Shown here piece by piece: positions 7,044-17,343 of a stretch of DNA of 47,570 nucleotides. Location of the stretch: assembly GCF_029688865.1 (NCBI RefSeq), contig NZ_JARUKV010000033.1, forward strand, positions 1 through 47,570. The letters run 5' to 3'. Under the pieces are notes generated by a model, which did not search any database, had not been told where the DNA came from, and saw only the letters and a list, made by a program, of their open reading frames with translations. How positions within the stretch are numbered: the first letter of the stretch is position 1; each line of letters starts with the position of its first letter. Position numbers and translations under genes: made by a program. Origin of the DNA: Natronococcus sp. A-GB7 (lineage in GTDB: Archaea; Halobacteriota; Halobacteria; Halobacteriales; Natrialbaceae).

Positions 7044-8285
7044 CTACCGCAGATCGACTCCGGCAGTATCGAGAACGGCGTTTGCGAGCGTGTTCACCGC
7101 TCGCTGACAGTCGTCCCAGCTTGTCCGTTCAGCCGGCGTGTGGCTCTTCCCGTCTTCGCTGACCGCGAATATCATAGCCGCTTCGCAGACATCAGCGACG
7201 TGAGACGCGTCGTGAGCGCCTCCGCTCAACAATTTCGTGCTGTCGTAGCCGAGTTCGTCAGCAGCGGCTTGCACGCTATCGATGCGCCGGTCCTCGAACT
7301 TGACACTCGAGGTCCGGACCGTTTCCGATACGTCGTACTCGATACCTTCCCTGGTCGCGGCCGCGCTGGCGTCGGCCGAAATCTGCTCGACGGCGCGTGC
7401 GATCACCTCATCGGACGGATCCCGAACGTCCCACGTAACCGAGGCAGTTTCCGGAATAATGTTGATCGAGTCGGGCCGAACGTCGATCGAACCAACCGTT
7501 CCAACCGTCCGCTCGCCCAGTCTGGACGGCAGTCTTCGAATATTAGTCACGAGTTCTGCGGCCGGAACCGCAGCGTCGCTGCGCAAGTGCATCGGTGTAG
7601 CGCCGGCGTGGTCGGCGTGTCCGTCGAACGTTACTTCTCCCCATGAGAGCCCAACGATCCCGGTTACGACGCCAACGTGCTTATCGTTTGCTTCGAGATA
7701 CGGTCCCTGTTCGATGTGTAGCTCGAAGTACGCCTCGTAGTCTTCGGCTGGCTCGGCTGGGACGTCACCGCGGTAGCCGATGCGCTCGAGTTCATCGACG
7801 AGCCGAGCACCGTTCCGATCGGTGCGTTCGTACTCTATCTCGAGATTGAACTCACCGGACCACACGCCGCTCCCCTGTAACCCCGGCTGAAAACGGGCCC
7901 CCTCTTCGTTCGTCCAGTTTACGATCTCGATCGGCCGGCTGGTTTCGATCCCTTTGTCCTCAAGCGTCCGGAGTATCTCGAGGGCCCCGATGACGCCGAG
8001 TTGTCCGTCGTATATGCCGCCATTGGGCTGAGAATCAAGGTGCGATCCGACTAAGACTGGCGGCGCAGTCGGATCGGTCCCCGCTCGTCGGCCGAAGATG
8101 TTTCCAATCTCATCTATCCGAACGTTCATGCCGAGGGCGTTCAGCTGATCGACGAACCAGTCTCGAACCTCCTTGTCAGCGTCGGAAAGAGCTAACCGGT
8201 GGAGGCCTCCGTTCGCGGTTCCGCCGATGGATGCCTGTTTGTTCATCGCTTCAACCAACCGATCGCGATTGATATCGATTTGCAC
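7044..8285 (-). CDS. M20-family N-carbamoyl amino acid / ureide hydrolase
   Basis: This is a Zn-dependent amidohydrolase of the allantoate amidohydrolase / N-carbamoyl-L-amino acid hydrolase / beta-ureidopropionase group. Metal-site motifs are His82 and Asp84 (VGSHLDSQPNGGIYDGQLG), Glu127-Glu128 (NWTNEEGARF) and HIEQGP, with the dimerisation-lid segment near GHADHAGATPMHLRSD. The SQPNGG form resembles carbamoylases more than allantoate enzymes, so N-carbamoyl amino acids or ureidopropionate are the likelier substrates (inference). The frame is open back to 8384, but homology begins near the GTG at 8285, giving 413 residues; ATG 8246 is the alternative. It converges with the amidase (23-nt gap), suggesting a joint amide/carbamoyl catabolic role. 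Confidence 0.87.
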   Translation of the reverse strand: MQIDINRDRLVEAMNKQASIGGTANGGLHRLALSDADKEVRDWFVDQLNALGMNVRIDEIGNIFGRRAGTDPTAPPVLVGSHLDSQPNGGIYDGQLGVIGALEILRTLEDKGIETSRPIEIVNWTNEEGARFQPGLQGSGVWSGEFNLEIEYERTDRNGARLVDELERIGYRGDVPAEPAEDYEAYFELHIEQGPYLEANDKHVGVVTGIVGLSWGEVTFDGHADHAGATPMHLRSDAAVPAAELVTNIRRLPSRLGERTVGTVGSIDVRPDSINIIPETASVTWDVRDPSDEVIARAVEQISADASAAATREGIEYDVSETVRTSSVKFEDRRIDSVQAAADELGYDSTKLLSGGAHDASHVADVCEAAMIFAVSEDGKSHTPAERTSWDDCQRAVNTLANAVLDTAGVDLR

Positions 8286-8907: not shown

Positions 8908-9582
8908 TCACTGACCGATCAATCGAAGTTCAGTCGCAAGCTTTTCCCTGGCTGTTGGGCCAACGAGGCGCGTCTCGATACTCCCGTCAGCGGTACACAG
9001 TACCGTCGGCGCACCGACCACGTCGTACTCCGTTCGAAGGAGCCGTCCGCAGTCCGGTCCGTACACGGCGAGTGGAATCGTCTCGGTTGGGGGCTCCTCG
9101 GCGACTATCGCCTCGAGATCCGACCGAACGTCTTTACAGGGATCACACTCGTCTCGCCAAATGTACACCAGGCACCGCTCACAGGTCTCGACAAGTTTCA
9201 TCAGCCCGGGTCCAGTAACTGGAACGAATCCGTCAGGAGCACCGTGCTCCGGTGGAACGCCATCTTCGAGCTGTTCGGTAATGATCGCGACGAGTACCGT
9301 TTCCGTCACCGTCAACTCGGTTCCACGCTCGCGAATCGCGACGAATCGCGAGAGCAGATCCGGGTCGTACTCGGTGCGGGTACACAGTTGGACCGCGGTT
9401 TCACCGTCATCAACTACCGTTTCGATCGTCGCCTCCATCTCGTCGTTATCTGCCGCGTCCAGGCACTTTCGGTACGTATCGACTGTTGACCCGAACGAGT
9501 CGGTAAGGCGGAGTTGTTGGTCACACGCCCGTTCGAAGACGTCCCGCTCGATCAGCTGCTCAATTCCGGCTTTGGAAGCCAT
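8908..9582 (-). CDS. Thioredoxin-fold protein with CDPC active site
   Basis: The 224-residue protein has an N-terminal helical region (about 1-110) and a C-terminal thioredoxin-like domain (about 122-222). The redox motif is Cys146-Asp-Pro-Cys149 (IWRDECDPCKDV), with the cis-proline at VVGAPTVL (Pro192). There is no signal peptide, so it is a cytoplasmic disulfide reductase or thioredoxin-type protein. It is the downstream neighbour of the binding-protein gene on the same strand but has its own TATATAT element 20-27 nt upstream of the ATG. The gene converges on the halocyanin-like gene with a 29-nt gap. The N-terminal domain is not recognised; its partner is unknown. Confidence 0.8.
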   Translation of the reverse strand: MASKAGIEQLIERDVFERACDQQLRLTDSFGSTVDTYRKCLDAADNDEMEATIETVVDDGETAVQLCTRTEYDPDLLSRFVAIRERGTELTVTETVLVAIITEQLEDGVPPEHGAPDGFVPVTGPGLMKLVETCERCLVYIWRDECDPCKDVRSDLEAIVAEEPPTETIPLAVYGPDCGRLLRTEYDVVGAPTVLCTADGSIETRLVGPTAREKLATELRLIGQ

Positions 9583-9687: not shown

Positions 9688-11478
9688 TTACGGGTCGAGC
9701 CCGAGTTCGTCGATACAGGGGAACTCATCGGCCGACGGAACATCACCTTCCTCCCAGAGAGGGTCGAGATCCGCGTCGGGTGGATAGTAGAGGTTGTCGT
9801 TGCTATCCCACTCCCAGCCGGCTTCCTCGAGAATCTGCCGCCCTTGTTCCGGGTCGCCCGACGAGTCATCTGCCATCTGGTATACTTCGCCTTCCGACGG
9901 GTGCATCGGGTGGACTTCGGAAATAAACGTCCCGTATAGTTCCGCATCGACCTCCCCACCGTACGCGATATCTATCATCTCCTGTCTGTTGAGCACGGCG
10001 GCCATAGCCTGTCGAAACTCGGTGAACTTCCCGGGGGCGATGTGTGACGCTGGCTGGAGCAGGAAGGTGGTGTGTGACTCCTCGAACGCAGATTCGGCGT
10101 CGTCGATTTCTTCGTTGGCGCGATCGGCATTGGGTGGCGAGATCTCCGGGGCGATGTGGCACTCGCCGGACTCTATTCCTTGCATCATCGTCTCTTCGTC
10201 CGCGAACGCTTCGAACACGATTGGTTGCCCGGGTTCGTACACGGGATGACCGCCGTGGGGCTCGCAGATGAACCGCTGTCCGGGCTCGAGCTCAGTTACC
10301 TCCAGCGGTCCGGAGCTGACCAACGGCAGCTCGAACGACGCTTCGCCCGGATCATCGACTGCACCGGCCTCCTCGAAGGTTTCCTCGTGCCAGATTCCCC
10401 ACCGCATGAGCGTTGTTTCCGCGAACGGTAGGTACGGTTCGGAGAACTCGAACTGGCAGGTCTGCTCGTCGACGGCGGTAATCGCCTCGTACGGAACGTC
10501 GGCGGCGCCCGGATATGCGCCGGCGTCGGCCCCGCGCTCGATCTGTTCGAACGTGAATTTCACGTCCTCCGCCGTGATCTGATCACCGTTTGTGAACGTG
10601 GCATCGTCGAACAGTTCCACCACCACCTCTTGAGGGCCGACGACCTCAACCTCCCCGAGGAGGTCGATCGGGTCGTAGTTCTCGTCGTACTTGTGGATCG
10701 GCGAGTGGATCATGTGCTGCCACTGGGCCTCGGGCATCGACGCCGACAGCGTCGGGAAGTTCGTCGTCTCCGTCGCTTGTGGATCGGTACCGATTACGAG
10801 GTAGTCTTCGTCGGAATCGATCAGCTCCGATTTGAATGCCCACTCGGCGTTAGATCGAGCGATACCTGCATCTCCGATTCCGTCGACTTCGACCTTGTCG
10901 GTTCGCCACGCACCGACGTTCGCAACGGGGCAGATATCGATACAGACGCACTCTTCTGCGACGACTCCCATCGCATCGGTAAGCATCTCATCGCGTTCTT
11001 CTTCGGTGTCTGCGGACACCTGGTTTACCTGTAACTCGGTAAACTCACAGTTCGCCCAGTTGTTCGAGTTTGACTGTCCGTTTGCGCCCGCCCAGTCCAG
11101 CCGCAAGTTATCGTACAGTTCGTTCGGATCGAGTCGATCCGGGGTTCCGACCCACCACGTGAAACTCACGTCGCAATCTCGGTTTTCGTCGTTGTACTGC
11201 TGGGACGTCTGCGTCGAGAGATCCACCGGAACCAGATCGACATCGACGCCGAGGTGGTCCTCGAGGTTCCGTTCGATGACGACGGCCATCTGCTCTTGGA
11301 TCGTGGTGTACCCACCGTAGTCTCCCCAGTACTCGATTTGGAGCGTCGGGACGCGTTCGCCATCCATGTCATCACCACTGAGACACCCGGCGAGACCGAC
11401 TGTCCCTGCACCGCCGATCGCTTGCATGACGGTCCGTCTGCTAACCGCGTCGTTACGTTCCGTGCCAGATTTTGGCAT
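9688..11478 (-). CDS. Family-5 ABC substrate-binding lipoprotein, halves in permuted order
   Basis: The 596-residue protein has a Tat motif (SRRTVMQ), lipobox Cys32 (VGLAGC) and then a dipeptide/oligopeptide/nickel-type (SBP_bac_5) binding domain. The order is unusual. Residues about 45-205 (IQEQMAVVIERNLEDHLGVD, then CDVSFTWWVGTPDRLDP, TEEERDEMLTDAMGVVAEE) match what is normally the C-terminal third of these proteins. Residues about 224-575 hold the normal N-terminal parts (DDATFTNGDQITAEDVKFTF at 291-310, then FRQAMAAVLNRQEMIDIAYG and DPEQGRQILEEAGW). The protein ends where the usual C-terminal lobe would begin. This is best read as a circular permutation. The divergent permease/ATPase genes start at 11851. 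The ligand is unknown; an amide or peptide-like compound is inferred from the neighbours. Confidence 0.88.
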   Translation of the reverse strand: MPKSGTERNDAVSRRTVMQAIGGAGTVGLAGCLSGDDMDGERVPTLQIEYWGDYGGYTTIQEQMAVVIERNLEDHLGVDVDLVPVDLSTQTSQQYNDENRDCDVSFTWWVGTPDRLDPNELYDNLRLDWAGANGQSNSNNWANCEFTELQVNQVSADTEEERDEMLTDAMGVVAEECVCIDICPVANVGAWRTDKVEVDGIGDAGIARSNAEWAFKSELIDSDEDYLVIGTDPQATETTNFPTLSASMPEAQWQHMIHSPIHKYDENYDPIDLLGEVEVVGPQEVVVELFDDATFTNGDQITAEDVKFTFEQIERGADAGAYPGAADVPYEAITAVDEQTCQFEFSEPYLPFAETTLMRWGIWHEETFEEAGAVDDPGEASFELPLVSSGPLEVTELEPGQRFICEPHGGHPVYEPGQPIVFEAFADEETMMQGIESGECHIAPEISPPNADRANEEIDDAESAFEESHTTFLLQPASHIAPGKFTEFRQAMAAVLNRQEMIDIAYGGEVDAELYGTFISEVHPMHPSEGEVYQMADDSSGDPEQGRQILEEAGWEWDSNDNLYYPPDADLDPLWEEGDVPSADEFPCIDELGLDP

Positions 11479-11850: not shown

Positions 11851-12816
11851 ATGCGTGTCGGAACGAAACGTATGATCTCGAAACACCGGATACAGTCGTT
11901 ACGCCCGTATCAAATGGTAGCAGAGAACCATATCTTGCGCAACTTTCTCACCGCGTTGCGAAAGATGCTCGACGATCGAACAACATCGTTTTATTTCGCG
12001 ATTCTGCTGGTAATAGTCGTGATGGGGCTTTTCGGGCCAATGCTCGCACCTCACGATGTCAATGCAACTCACTACGATGACAATGGCGATATACTACGAG
12101 CCGAAGCTCCGTCAGTGGACCACCCGCTTGGAACGACCCACGCCGGATACGACGTCTTTTCCCGAATCCTCGTCGGCGCCCGACCAACGGTTCTTACGGG
12201 ATTGATCGGTGGTGGAATGATTCTGTCGATTGGCACGGCCGTCGGCGTCACCGCCGGATACGTCGGTGGGAAAACGGAAACCGTCTTGATGCGCTTTACC
12301 GATTTCGTGTACGGTGTGCCGCTGATTCCGTTCGCGATTGTGCTGATCACCTTCATGGGAGTCGGATTCCTCTCTTCCGCACTTGTTATCGGATTGATAC
12401 TTTGGCGCGGTGCTGCCCGCGTGATACGCGCACAGACGATGCAAGTAAAACAGTACCCGTTCGTGAAAGTGGCAAAAGCGAGCGGAGCGAGCACGCCACG
12501 AATCATCTTCAAACACATCTTGCCGAACGTCGCACCGATGGCGATTTTCTTCCTCGCGATGGGCGTCGGCTACGCGATTATTCTTCAAGCTGGACTAACG
12601 TTTCTCGGCGTTGCCGATCCGTTCGTCCCCTCCTGGGGAGTGATGATTCGGAACGCGTTTGACTCGGGCTACATGGCGACGGCACCATGGTGGTCGCTTA
12701 CACCTGGACTACTGATCGGAATTACGGTCCTGTCGACGTTTATGTTCGGACGCGGGTACGAAGACCTGATCGACGAGGACGCGGAGAGCGTCGATGCGGA
12801 GGCAGTGAGTGCGTGA
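11851..12816 (+). CDS. ABC transporter permease, DppC/OppC type
   Basis: The 321-residue inner-membrane permease has the DppC layout: an N-terminal helix (FYFAILLVIVVMGLFGPM), a periplasmic loop with DHPLGTTHAGYDVFSRILVG, then five helices. The EAA-type coupling loop reads VKVAKASGASTPRIIFKHIL. Helices near FFLAMGVGYAIILQAGLTFL and LTPGLLIGITVLSTF follow. The ATG at 11851 is supported by the TATA element at the right distance; ATG 11872 is a possible alternative. Its C-terminus is acidic. The gene is followed after 4 nt by the OppD-like ATPase, so the genes are co-transcribed. With the DppB-type permease at 15283 it forms the heterodimeric channel. Confidence 0.92.
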   Translation: MRVGTKRMISKHRIQSLRPYQMVAENHILRNFLTALRKMLDDRTTSFYFAILLVIVVMGLFGPMLAPHDVNATHYDDNGDILRAEAPSVDHPLGTTHAGYDVFSRILVGARPTVLTGLIGGGMILSIGTAVGVTAGYVGGKTETVLMRFTDFVYGVPLIPFAIVLITFMGVGFLSSALVIGLILWRGAARVIRAQTMQVKQYPFVKVAKASGASTPRIIFKHILPNVAPMAIFFLAMGVGYAIILQAGLTFLGVADPFVPSWGVMIRNAFDSGYMATAPWWSLTPGLLIGITVLSTFMFGRGYEDLIDEDAESVDAEAVSA

Positions 12817-12820
12817 TACG

Positions 12821-13885
12821 ATGACTGAACCACTACTCGAGGTCGAAGACCTCACGATTCAGTACGAAACTGACGGTGGAATGTTAACCGCCGTGTCGGA
12901 TGCATCGTTTACGATCGACGAAGGGGAGTTCTTCGGACTCGCGGGCGAGTCTGGCTCCGGGAAGAGCACGATTGCGAAGTCGATTATCGGCGGTCTCGAT
13001 TCGAACGGACAAGTCACGTCCGGGACGATTCGATACCGTGGCGAAGAGATCCAGGGGTACGACGATAAGCAGCTCAACGAAGCGGTTCGGTGGAAAGAAA
13101 TCGCTTGGATTCCACAGAGTTCGATGAACAGCCTGGATCCGCTCCAGCAAGTCAGCGAACAGGCGATCGAAATCGGGCAAGTCCACACGGATCTCTCGAA
13201 CGTTGAATTACGCGACCGGCTCAAGGAGATGTTCGATATCGTGGGTCTCCAAGAGAGTCGAATCGACGACTACCCCCACCAGTTCTCCGGCGGGATGCAA
13301 CAGCGGGCGATTATCGCACTCGCCCTGTTTCTCGAGCCGAGTCTCATTATCGCCGACGAGCCGACAACCGCACTCGATGTCATCATGCAGGATCAGATCT
13401 TCAAATATCTCGACGAAGTCAAATCGGAGCTCGAGACCAGCCTCCTGTTGATCACACACGACATTAGCGTTATCTTCGAATCGTGTGATAGCGTTGCGAT
13501 CATGCACGCAAGTCAGGTCGCGGAGTACGGGTCGGTTGCCGCCGTTCACGACAATCCTCGACACCCCTACGCGTTCATGTTCAAAGAGGCGTTCCCGGAC
13601 GTGCGCGAACCCGATCGGGAACTGGAGGTGATCGACGGCTATCCGCCGGAACTGATTGGCGACGTCGACTTCTGTAGCTTCATCGATCGGTGTCCGTGGG
13701 CGACCGACGAGTGTGGACAGCGAGCACCGAACATGGAATCGGTCGACGACGACGATCCGACGCACGTAGCCGGCTGTTTCCGGAAAGACGAGGCGTACGA
13801 GTTATACCAGTCGGAACGCGATCACGCACGATCTGAGGGACACTCGGGAGAGCAAACGACCGCCGTAACGGAGGGAAGTGACTGA
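12821..13885 (+). CDS. ABC transporter ATP-binding protein, OppD/DppD type
   Basis: The 354-residue ATPase has Walker A (GESGSGKST, 42-50), a Q-loop near [12 protein letters not shown], the signature FSGGMQQ (155-161), Walker B (LIIADE, 175-180) and H-loop His213. The C-terminal oligopeptide-transporter extension contains Cys285, Cys291, Cys298 and Cys319. In this subfamily such cysteines may hold an Fe-S cluster or metal (family knowledge, not shown here). The start ATG 12821 follows the permease stop by 4 nt; an earlier in-frame ATG at 12809 overlaps the permease. It works as half of the ATPase heterodimer with the next gene. Confidence 0.93.
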
Positions 13886-13887
13886 TA

Positions 13888-15183
13888 ATGACCGACGAAA
13901 CACCGCTGCTGGAGATACGGAACCTACGAAAGTACTTCGAGGAAAGCTCGAACGTCCTCGACCTACTGCTTCGGCGAGAGCCGGACCAGATACAGGCCGT
14001 CGACGACGTCTCGTTGACGCTGAACGAAAACGAGTCGATTGCCGTGATCGGCGAGAGTGGCTGTGGGAAGACGACGCTGCTGTTGACGCTTATTGGCCTC
14101 CACGATATCACAGACGGGGAGATCATCTACAAAGGGACCCCTGTTTCGGAGTTCGATAAAGCGGACTGGAAGGACTACCGGAGCAATGTCCAGGTGATCT
14201 TTCAGGACCCGTTCAACGCTCTCGATCCGAAGATGACGATCAGGGAATCGCTGGAAGAGCCCTTGAAAATACACGGAATCGATGACCGCGACAGGCGGGT
14301 GCGGGACGTGCTCGAGCACGTCGAACTGAGTCCGCCCGAGAAATATCTCGGTCGCAAACCGGTCAACTTGAGCGGCGGCGAGAAACAACGAGTTGCGATC
14401 GCGCGTGCGCTGATCGTCGAGCCGGACATCATTCTTGCGGACGAGCCGGTATCGATGCTCGACGCCTCGACACAGGCAGCCGTGCTGAAGATGATGAAAG
14501 AACTTATCGAAGACTTCGGCGTCTCGATGATCTACATCTCGCACGACCTGTCGACCGTTTCGTACATCTCGGAGCATGTGAACGTGATGTACCTCGGCCG
14601 AATCGTGGAGACGGCGCCGACGGGACAGATCCTTGCAGATCCGAAACATCCGTATACCGATGCACTCGTTTCGGCGGTCCCGATTCCCGACCCGGGCCAC
14701 GACCGAGATCGAACACGGATGTCCGGCGCGCCACGTGATCCCATCGGTCTCGGTGACGGCTGCCGGTTCCGCGATCGGTGTCCCGCGGTCATCCCGCCGG
14801 ACCACCTCGAGATCGATCAGGAAGCGTTTCGGGAGGTCATGGAGTTTCGCGAACTCCTCGACCGCGATGAAATCGCCTTCGATCGAGTGGTTGAAACGAT
14901 CGATGACCCTGACCCTGACGATCGAACGATGGCCAGGGCACTGAAACAGGAGTATTTCCGACACGAGTTGTCGGGCGAAAACGAAGCGACCCTCACCGAG
15001 TCCCTGATCGCACTTGCTAACGAAAAACCCGACGTTGCGGCCCGGCGACTCAAGCAGCGGTTCGAAAGCGTCTGCGAGACTACGCCAGCGTACGTCGAAG
15101 CCGAAACCGGATGGAACGTCGCCTGCCACCACTACGAAGAAAGTACCAATGAAACACAGTCCACTCCCGCGAAACAGCACTGA
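13888..15183 (+). CDS. ABC transporter ATP-binding protein, OppF/DppF type with insertion
   Basis: The 431-residue ATPase begins 2 nt after the OppD stop. Walker A is GESGCGKT (55-62), Q-loop Gln106, signature LSGGEKQ (161-167), Walker B IILADE (181-186) and H-loop His219. The C-terminal cysteine motif is interrupted: Cys292 and Cys298 (GCRFRDRCPA) are separated from Cys396 and Cys413 (SVCETTPAYVE, VACHHYEE) by about 97 residues. In typical OppF proteins this gap is some 10-25 residues. The insert is charged and helical (EVMEFRELLDRDEIAFDRVV, ALKQEYFRHELSGENEATL) and of unknown function. Otherwise it is a standard partner of the preceding ATPase. Confidence 0.92.
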   Translation: MTDETPLLEIRNLRKYFEESSNVLDLLLRREPDQIQAVDDVSLTLNENESIAVIGESGCGKTTLLLTLIGLHDITDGEIIYKGTPVSEFDKADWKDYRSNVQVIFQDPFNALDPKMTIRESLEEPLKIHGIDDRDRRVRDVLEHVELSPPEKYLGRKPVNLSGGEKQRVAIARALIVEPDIILADEPVSMLDASTQAAVLKMMKELIEDFGVSMIYISHDLSTVSYISEHVNVMYLGRIVETAPTGQILADPKHPYTDALVSAVPIPDPGHDRDRTRMSGAPRDPIGLGDGCRFRDRCPAVIPPDHLEIDQEAFREVMEFRELLDRDEIAFDRVVETIDDPDPDDRTMARALKQEYFRHELSGENEATLTESLIALANEKPDVAARRLKQRFESVCETTPAYVEAETGWNVACHHYEESTNETQSTPAKQH

Positions 15184-15282
15184 ACGGTCCGTACAGCCGA
15201 GACAACCTATCATGCCCTTCGAGATCCGTTCGGTAACTCTTCCGTTTGCACGCCGAATCCCCGGAGAGGAGGTGAGCCACGA

Positions 15283-16269
15283 ATGGCGTCGATGAAGCGA
15301 TACTTCGTAGTTCGCTTCGTGCAGACGTTCGTCGTGCTATGGTTAGTGTTGACGGGTCTATTCCTACTGTTCAGGCTGATGCCGGGCGATTTCACCGCAC
15401 AGATGGCGGTTGCAGGTGCAAGCCCGGAGGCGCTCGAGGAGATCCGTGATCAGTGGGGACTTAACGACCCGCTGTACGTCCAGTACTGGTCGTATCTCGT
15501 CAACTTCGTTCAGCTCGATATGGGTGAGTCGGCGATTTACCGCCAGGACGTCTGGCAACTCACCAAGATGCGAATCTTCAATACGTTCATCCTCGTCGCT
15601 CCCGCGATCACGCTTACGTACGTTCTCGGTTCCGTTATCGGAACGGTCGCCGGCCGAAAGCGCGGAACCAACTTGGAGAAGTTCGGAATCGTTCCCGTCA
15701 TCGCGGCCGGCTCGTTCCCGTCTTTTTTTATTGCGATCGTGTTCATCATCGTGTTCGCCAGCTGGATGGGGCTGTTTCCGACATCCGGAATGCTCTCACC
15801 TGGCGTCTCCGGCGAGTATGACACGTGGTGGGGCCCTTACTTGTCCGGGAACTTCGCCCACCACTACGTGCTCCCGTTCGCAGCGGTCATCTGTCGGTAC
15901 CTGTTTATTCCGTCAATGATCATGCGAACCAGCGTTATCGAAGTGATGGACAAGGGCCACACGCAGTACCACCGCCTGACCGGTCTCTCGTCAGTCCAGC
16001 GGTTCCGTCACACGGCAAAGCACGCGAGCCTACCGTTGATCACGCTGTATCCGGTATCGATGGCGCGCGCACTCGGTGGTCTCGTCCTGATCGAAACCGT
16101 CTTCAACTGGCCCGGAATCGGTTGGCTGCTCGTCGAATCGGTGCTCGGTCGTGATTACCCCGTCGTCCAATTTGTCTTCTTCATCGTGGCGGCATTCGTT
16201 ATCATCTCGAACTTCGTGGTTGACCTCGTCTACGGGACGATCGATCCGCGAATCCGAGTCGAAGAGTGA
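15283..16269 (+). CDS. ABC transporter permease, DppB/OppB type
   Basis: The 328-residue permease starts with the classic DppB N-terminus (RYFVVRFVQTFVVLWLVLTG, then FRLMPGDF and EEIRDQWGLNDPLYVQYW). It has six predicted helices and a coupling loop near RLTGLSSVQRFRHTAKHAS. The end reads DLVYGTIDPRIR, as is usual. It comes last in the importer operon, 99 nt after the OppF gene, whereas dppB normally precedes dppC. The operon order here is dppC-oppD-oppF-dppB with the binding protein divergent. Confidence 0.92.
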   Translation: MASMKRYFVVRFVQTFVVLWLVLTGLFLLFRLMPGDFTAQMAVAGASPEALEEIRDQWGLNDPLYVQYWSYLVNFVQLDMGESAIYRQDVWQLTKMRIFNTFILVAPAITLTYVLGSVIGTVAGRKRGTNLEKFGIVPVIAAGSFPSFFIAIVFIIVFASWMGLFPTSGMLSPGVSGEYDTWWGPYLSGNFAHHYVLPFAAVICRYLFIPSMIMRTSVIEVMDKGHTQYHRLTGLSSVQRFRHTAKHASLPLITLYPVSMARALGGLVLIETVFNWPGIGWLLVESVLGRDYPVVQFVFFIVAAFVIISNFVVDLVYGTIDPRIRVEE

Positions 16270-16416: not shown

Positions 16417-17343
16417 TCAGAGATACGATTTCGGCACTGACGCACCAATCGTGTAGTTCGGATCGACCATGTTCCCCAAGCGGACCGAGCCGACCTGACT
16501 GAGAAACATGTATGCGTCGTACGTCTCGAAGCCGTACTCGTCGACCATCCACTCGATGAGTTCGCGGTACGCGATGCGTGCCGCATCCTCCATCAGACGC
16601 ATGCTCCCGACGGCCATAATGAACTCGTCGCTCTCGATCCGCGGCCACTCGATAGGGGCGTCGGGAATCACGTCGACGGTGATCATCGTTACCGTCGGAA
16701 TCTCGACCGCGACACCGCACAGTTCGCCATCTCCCTGTGCGGCGTGGCAATCACCCAGATACAGCAACGCTCCATCAGTATTGACTGGCAGGTGAATCTC
16801 GTTTCCCGGTCTCACGTCGGGGAGGTCCATGTTACCTCCGTGTTTGAACGGCGTCACCGAACTCACCGAGTCGATCTCCGGCGCAGTTCCGATCGTTCCG
16901 ATAAACGGGTCATACGGAATCGTCGTTTCGTCGTCCCACGCGATGCCGTCAGTCGTGACGTCGCTCATGTTTACTTGCTCCGGCAAACTGTCGTGTAACA
17001 TCGCGGTACGATCCGTCGCCGTCAGTCCCCCGAAGTACGGAACGAGACACGTCGTCCCTCGAGGCTGCGGTCCTCGAGGTTCAATCGATTCGATCGTCAC
17101 GCGGAACGTGTCTCCTTTTTCAGCTCCGTTGACGTAGATCGGTCCGGATTGGGGATTGAGATGAGAGCCTTCGAGCGCCTCGCTCGGTCGGTCTTGATCG
17201 CCGGTGATCTTTCCGCCGAACGCGTCGACCGTTTCGACGGCGACGGTTTCGCCAGGTTCGATCTCGAGAACCGGTTCGGCGTACGGGCCGATCGTGTAAC
17301 GGAAGTCGCCTTGCTGATCGATAGATAGCTTTCGGGTCGCCAT
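16417..17343 (-). CDS. Acetamidase/formamidase (FmdA/AmdA family)
   Basis: The 308-residue protein matches the FmdA_AmdA family, which hydrolyses short amides such as formamide or acetamide to the acid plus ammonia. Family hallmarks are SHLNPQSGPIYVNGAEKGDT, FKHGGNMDLPDVRPGNEIHL and LYLGDCHAAQGDGELCG, in the expected order and length. It is cytoplasmic. It converges on the DppB gene and diverges from the HTH gene at 17565. An AT-rich TTATTACTTG element about 20-28 nt upstream of the ATG is a plausible promoter. Its place next to the amidase, carbamoylase and importer supports an amide-nitrogen scavenging cluster; the exact substrate is not determinable. Confidence 0.9.
   Translation of the reverse strand: MATRKLSIDQQGDFRYTIGPYAEPVLEIEPGETVAVETVDAFGGKITGDQDRPSEALEGSHLNPQSGPIYVNGAEKGDTFRVTIESIEPRGPQPRGTTCLVPYFGGLTATDRTAMLHDSLPEQVNMSDVTTDGIAWDDETTIPYDPFIGTIGTAPEIDSVSSVTPFKHGGNMDLPDVRPGNEIHLPVNTDGALLYLGDCHAAQGDGELCGVAVEIPTVTMITVDVIPDAPIEWPRIESDEFIMAVGSMRLMEDAARIAYRELIEWMVDEYGFETYDAYMFLSQVGSVRLGNMVDPNYTIGASVPKSYL

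Follow-up and report, generated by a model that had tools for sequence, protein, structure and literature searches.

The window analysed here, a whole stretch of 47,570 nucleotides from Natronococcus sp. A-GB7, carries a gene for an ABC substrate-binding protein (SBP) in which the two lobes typical of the family appear to have changed places. The question raised by this locus is whether the lobe order is truly that of a circular permutant, and if so whether this is a peculiarity of one protein or a form that has arisen elsewhere.

The gene (Table 1) starts with ATG and encodes 596 residues. Its product, hereafter the window protein, has a twin arginine (SRR, residues 13-15) followed by the lipobox cysteine C32, the pattern of a haloarchaeal Tat lipoprotein; R14, R15, G31 and C32 are invariant across A1, a family profile built from 22 permuted relatives. 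Motifs of the canonical C-lobe come directly after this leader, and the N-lobe signature FTNGDQITAEDVKFTF is found at residues 295-310.

Table 1. Features of the window and SBP_bac_5 genes of the same genome.
Feature	Position	Strand	Basis
Circularly permuted SBP_bac_5 (cluster C) substrate-binding lipoprotein, 596 aa	9688..11478	-	ORF, Pfam, PDB, profile alignments
Leader, residues 1-32: Tat motif SRRTVMQ and lipobox LAGC (C32)	11383..11478	-	read directly
Canonical C-lobe, residues ~45-197, now N-terminal; equals AppA 360-497 / DppA 354-491	10888..11346	-	lobe HMMs, family profile
New linker from old C-terminus to old N-terminus, residues ~198-229	10792..10887	-	lobe HMMs, family profile, dN/dS
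Canonical N-lobe, residues ~230-564, now C-terminal part; equals AppA 18-351 / DppA 11-339	9787..10791	-	Pfam, lobe HMMs, family profile
C-terminal tail, residues 565-596, and stop; new C-terminus at inter-lobe break	9688..9786	-	translation, alignment A1
Permease, DppC-like, divergent from SBP gene	11851..12816	+	Pfam BPD_transp_1, OppC_N
ATPase, DppD-like	12809..13885	+	Pfam ABC_tran, oligo_HPY
ATPase, DppF-like	13888..15183	+	Pfam ABC_tran, oligo_HPY
Permease, DppB-like	15283..16269	+	Pfam BPD_transp_1, BPD_transp_1_N
M20-family amidohydrolase, resembles N-carbamoyl amino acid hydrolase; possible catabolic partner	7044..8285	-	Pfam Peptidase_M20; syntenic in L037, L038
Acetamidase/formamidase; possible catabolic partner	16417..17343	-	Pfam FmdA_AmdA; adjoins dppB in L037, beyond M20 gene in L038
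Permuted SBPs, own genome	window on C27; C9; C1:289756; C1:9254; C1:11949; C14		
Canonical SBPs, own genome	C40, C23, C41		

SBP_bac_5 (PF00496) was the single Pfam family matched by the window protein up to E = 1, with 136.5 bits (E = 1.6e-39), above the curated gathering cut-off of 32.4 bits. It had been predicted that this HMM would match in reversed model order; indeed, the match fell into two stretches, the best of which placed residues 287-563 on model positions 21-286. The NCBIfam SapA model aligned with residues 64-194 at its positions 396-519, and a single chain of PDB 5isu aligned twice, query 286-565 on 76-346 and query 59-181 on 351-464, the second piece being weak alone. The A1 profile matched AppA with columns 218-559 on 18-351 (i-E 4e-63) and 50-192 on 360-497 (i-E 8e-18), and its lobes mapped to 11-339 and 354-491 of DppA. 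The order was crossed in each search that covered both parts, and the Pfam, SapA, 5isu and AppA matches agree on the swapped order under one leader that the sequence-only reading had proposed. Its further claim, that all parts are present behind a relocated Tat/lipoprotein leader, was also borne out: both AppA segments are covered, each lobe occurs once in the permuted profile, the gap at the cut is only 8 to 14 residues in the AppA and DppA alignments, and a single leader stands before the moved lobe.

One collinear match over the full length, named beforehand as the finding that would speak against a permutation, appeared only after the lobes had been exchanged. In its native order the permuted profile gave two crossed alignments with a canonical profile (177-508 on 2-317 and 8-149 on 329-463), whereas exchange of the lobes gave one collinear alignment over 456 of 464 columns with a score of 734, where the best native piece had reached 560. 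Both cluster C lobes are present at full length in the window protein and do not run N-lobe then C-lobe; because the C-lobe precedes the N-lobe, we class it as a permuted variant and not as a canonical member. One detail of the earlier proposal did fail: the protein was said to end right after DPEQGRQILEEAGW (residues 542-555), but 41 further residues follow, and this C-terminal tail is common to close subfamily relatives (L008-L014, L037 and L038). An AlphaFold2 prediction of the window protein on a three-sequence alignment had a mean pLDDT of 30.5 and a pTM of 0.23.

The gene lies next to an importer gene set of the Dpp/Opp kind, as judged by Pfam: two BPD_transp_1 permeases and two ABC_tran/oligo_HPY ATPases form an intact dppC-D-F-B set (11851-16269), with the SBP gene divergent from dppC; no other SBP_bac_5 ORF was found on the contig. 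The SBP gene, dppCDFB and, on the other side, the M20 hydrolase gene are kept together in Halorubrum vacuolatum (L038) and in a Natrialbaceae MAG (L037), and an acetamidase/formamidase gene is near both loci, at different places. To judge from the neighbouring enzymes, the transporter may take up an amide, ureido or peptide-like substrate. Between the window gene and its Halorubrum vacuolatum counterpart (83% identity), dN/dS was 0.08 overall, 0.07 in the C-lobe and 0.08 in the N-lobe, and in the new linker (stretch 206-224) it was 0.09, as low as in the lobes. The window gene is thus a functioning one, under purifying selection across the lobes and the new linker. Separately, an ORF at 8908-9582 of the window looks thioredoxin-like by eye, with no Pfam match at 1e-5; its place next to the SBP gene is kept in both L037 and L038, with an identity of only ~48%.

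No more than two close relatives came up when contigs were searched with just the window protein. Its own genome has nine SBP_bac_5 ORFs, and in six of them the chain is permuted at this same loop. We then used SBP_bac_5 matches that stop near model position 285 as a mark of permuted proteins in 24 sampled Halobacteriales genomes, and classed lobe order with separate N-lobe and C-lobe HMMs. Among the 46 such short-match ORFs checked in this way, 44 were permuted and two, L127 and L131, were canonical with insertions. The permuted share comes to ~28% of roughly 155 SBP_bac_5 ORFs (163 matches minus separate C-lobe stretches, counted by hand), and the permuted form is present in 18 of the 24 genomes; other haloarchaea thus have the same order, and the window protein is not unique. 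Over all loci, the lobe HMMs gave 102 permuted and 46 canonical ORFs (106 and 79 in an enlarged set), ratios that are not frequencies because loci were partly picked for being permuted.

Two of the permuted genes in the Natronococcus genome, L045 (G000:C1:8500-11500) and L044 (G000:C1:11200-13900), lie near tandem, and each is followed by a gene for a membrane protein, not by permeases. The protein encoded behind L045 belongs to PAP2_3 (PAP2 superfamily), and those behind L044 and L047 look alike by eye. Instead of serving a transporter, these SBPs may act as sensors or as partners in some other process.

Outside the haloarchaea, the permuted form was found on alphaproteobacterial plasmids of Maritalea, Nitratireductor, Ketogulonicigenium, Roseomonas, Neorhizobium and Microvirga. 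Where annotated, these genes head operons of two permeases and two ATPases, and several adjoin genes for M28 or M20 peptidases, hydantoinase/oxoprolinase or gamma-glutamylcyclotransferase. No lipobox turned up when the alphaproteobacterial proteins were scanned with a simple motif; lipid anchoring is therefore no general reason for the permutation. The copy of Neorhizobium galegae VafX2 (L057, 5935-7588) has internal stops in the annotated frame and is annotated as two separate genes, whereas the match on other N. galegae plasmids is single and uninterrupted. In a sample of 393 genomes of the phylum, almost all of the matches listed outside Halobacteriales were canonical, the exception being genome G307 (family f13), and a scan of viral contigs for distant relatives found none. 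Candidates from Cytobacillus, Pseudohalocynthiibacter, Meiothermus, Fusobacterium, Roseivivax and Phyllobacterium, for which coverage had looked possible, are canonical by lobe order. The permuted G307 protein (L090, G307:C2:103732-105465) has at its end a stalk rich in Pro and Glu and a hydrophobic segment that contains RRRR, resembling a C-terminal membrane anchor, and thus seems to be anchored at its new C-terminus and not at its N-terminus.

A search of the order to which G307 belongs found four permuted proteins: L090 and one in each of three species (L180, L181 and L182) of genus g101, which is probably Archaeoglobus and includes A. fulgidus. Four other species of this genus (G209, G224, G385 and G355) have the canonical form, and the permuted and canonical proteins are 83-88% identical lobe by lobe: permuted L181 and canonical L184 share 86% of the N-lobe and 83% of the C-lobe, permuted L180 and canonical L185 84% and 88%, respectively. 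The canonical proteins read through the cut as ..AGYSEDNKLKLELWWTP.., while L181 has ..KKAGYSE at its C-terminal end and ..KKLKIELWWTP at the start of its mature C-lobe, its old ends being joined by a few residues as ..MIFRYYLVYSEEQKDTITIGVTDK... The permuted gene is divergent from a dppBCDF-like set (L209) and the canonical gene stands beside other genes (L212-L215); the permutation coincides with a change of locus in this presumed Archaeoglobus genus. No relic of a duplicated half was found beside the recent permuted genes in the loci compared.

For phylogeny, the lobes were extracted and rearranged into the canonical sequence before alignment, which kept the permutation itself from serving as a character in the tree. 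Four changes of topology were needed both in a quick tree of 86 rows and in a careful tree of 60 rows. Permuted haloarchaeal and alphaproteobacterial proteins formed a main clade (98/91); a second haloarchaeal group (L043, L096, L098, L105 and L113; 100/98) fell among canonical proteins, together with canonical L040 (95/91); and L090 and the g101 permuted proteins were placed among canonical f13 proteins (97/88; 100/100), bootstraps that are not fully settled in a tree with some long-branched rows. A single clade of all permuted rows, a grouping fixed before the tree, was rejected (p-AU 0.000535, lnL lower by 455). For two subsets chosen once the tree was known, a clade of the main set, the L043 group and L090 was also rejected (AU p 0.000116), and one of the main set and the L043 group only marginally (AU p 0.033).

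The place of the cut hardly differs between the groups. On the canonical model (length 461), the median end of the N-lobe was 320 in the main haloarchaeal set, 320 in the alphaproteobacterial set, 322 in L090, 312 in g101 and 314 in the L043 group, and the median start of the C-lobe was 321, 323, 320, 321 and 318, respectively; in every group the cut falls within the loop that connects the N-lobe block helix (ending ..ILEEAGW in the window protein) to the first C-lobe strand. In OppA and DppA the original N- and C-termini are both in lobe 1, hence the old termini could be joined by a short linker.

The rejection of a single permuted clade, together with the mix of forms in g101, argues that the permutation recurred, always in the same inter-lobe loop. 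We therefore think it likely that this loop of cluster C proteins is the site of a recurrent switch with at least three origins: in the haloarchaeal clade with its alphaproteobacterial proteins, in the G307 lineage, and recently within one genus, probably Archaeoglobus. The second haloarchaeal group is possibly a fourth, which we do not count because its separation from the main set rests on a marginal rejection of a post hoc subset. The direction is taken to be from canonical to permuted because canonical order is the rule in the bacteria and other archaea sampled.

Could a single ancient permutation have been inherited by all, the interspersed canonical relatives being due to tree error or to reversals? 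The shared loop, the unity of the main clade and the marginal result for the second haloarchaeal group are all as one would expect from such a history; both of the firmer rejections speak against it, and it is strongly contradicted by L180-L182, nested as they are among canonical proteins of the same genus that are nearly as similar in one lobe as in the other. We regard a single origin as improbable. Less probable still is domain shuffling or convergence, in which the C-lobe of another gene was fused before the N-lobe to make a chimera and not a permutant. Some C-lobe similarities are indeed weak in single-sequence searches, but both lobes of L181 match the same canonical gene, L184, equally well, the old ends of this recent case are joined by few residues, and the lobe HMMs found all blocks once in the permuted ORFs, none doubled and none missing. 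Mis-joined halves of a canonical gene, conceivable in a draft genome of 77 contigs, are already refuted by recurrence in independent assemblies, with 102 distinct ORFs sharing this order, some of them from plasmids whose records are complete or from a genome in one contig, and by the low dN/dS across the new linker.

The window protein is very probably a cluster C (OppA/DppA-type) substrate-binding lipoprotein that has been circularly permuted in nature, and the sole SBP serving the neighbouring importer of the DppBCDF type. Its chain is opened at the inter-lobe loop and the old C-terminus is linked to the old N-terminus, with a single Tat/lipobox leader ahead of the moved C-lobe; a likely route is tandem gene duplication followed by loss of the outer halves, the leader being kept. 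Because covalent order and not packing has changed, both lobes should still form an ordinary two-lobed "Venus flytrap". The protein is probably exported folded via Tat and held by its lipid through lobe 2 instead of lobe 1, and its cleft would capture a small peptide-like or amide ligand that is then probably handed to DppBC.

In E. coli DppABCDF, a scoop motif of DppB touches both lobes of DppA, and ligand salt bridges are made through DppA R383 and D436 (PMC12136057). Both residues lie inside the segment that is moved in the permutants, and by reading of the HMM alignment an Asp is kept at the D436-equivalent place of the window protein (D114); a regular-expression test for this ligand-contact Asp was uninformative, as it failed on most canonical proteins too. 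One hypothesis is that the permutation may have been kept as it puts the membrane tether on lobe 2 instead of lobe 1. A relation to tethering was also raised by the authors of the permuted Treponema pallidum protein MglB-2 (PMC4990184); the present family allows this idea to be tested and does not establish it.

This class of SBP is among the best-studied transport folds, and its solved relatives, the 60 best-scoring PDB chains, all have canonical order, with no permuted chain among them. The permuted branch nevertheless makes up more than a quarter of the class in the sampled haloarchaeal genomes, where ordinary annotation shows just a domain match that stops short. The sister forms of g101 offer a natural experiment, since they can be compared for stability, order of folding, export and docking while almost everything else is equal, and with them it can be tested whether the anchor-bearing lobe matters for docking to DppB/DppC. 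The inter-lobe loop also suggests itself as a place at which to permute cluster C proteins when sensors are built from them.

The sequence-only reading knew of no described permuted member, and a literature search agrees for SBP_bac_5, OppA and DppA: it found none, in sources that lacked most subscription papers, which leaves priority uncertain. "Just how versatile are domains?" mentions SBP_bac_5 and circular permutation in unrelated places only, and the available passages of CIRPIN mention no SBPs. The one precedent found is in another class. Tp0684 / MglB-2 of Treponema pallidum and its relatives is a naturally circularly permuted ABC substrate-binding lipoprotein, proposed as "Cluster Bc", and its ligand binding was shown to be kept (PMC4990184). 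The window protein shares with it the natural permutation of an ABC substrate-binding lipoprotein. MglB-2, however, is of cluster B (sugar-binding), with only strands of the N-lobe moved and a large insertion (PMC4990184), whereas the cut in the window family is the lobe boundary of cluster C; homology to cluster B or Cluster Bc was not detected in the window protein, SBP_bac_5 being its sole Pfam match up to E = 1. With the cluster C proteins DppA, AppA and OppA, by contrast, it shares homology over both lobes, an operon with two permeases and two oligo_HPY ATPases, and a lipoprotein or periplasmic leader. It differs from them in running C-lobe then N-lobe with the leader on the other lobe, its new termini lying at the loop that corresponds to AppA 351/360 (DppA 339/354).
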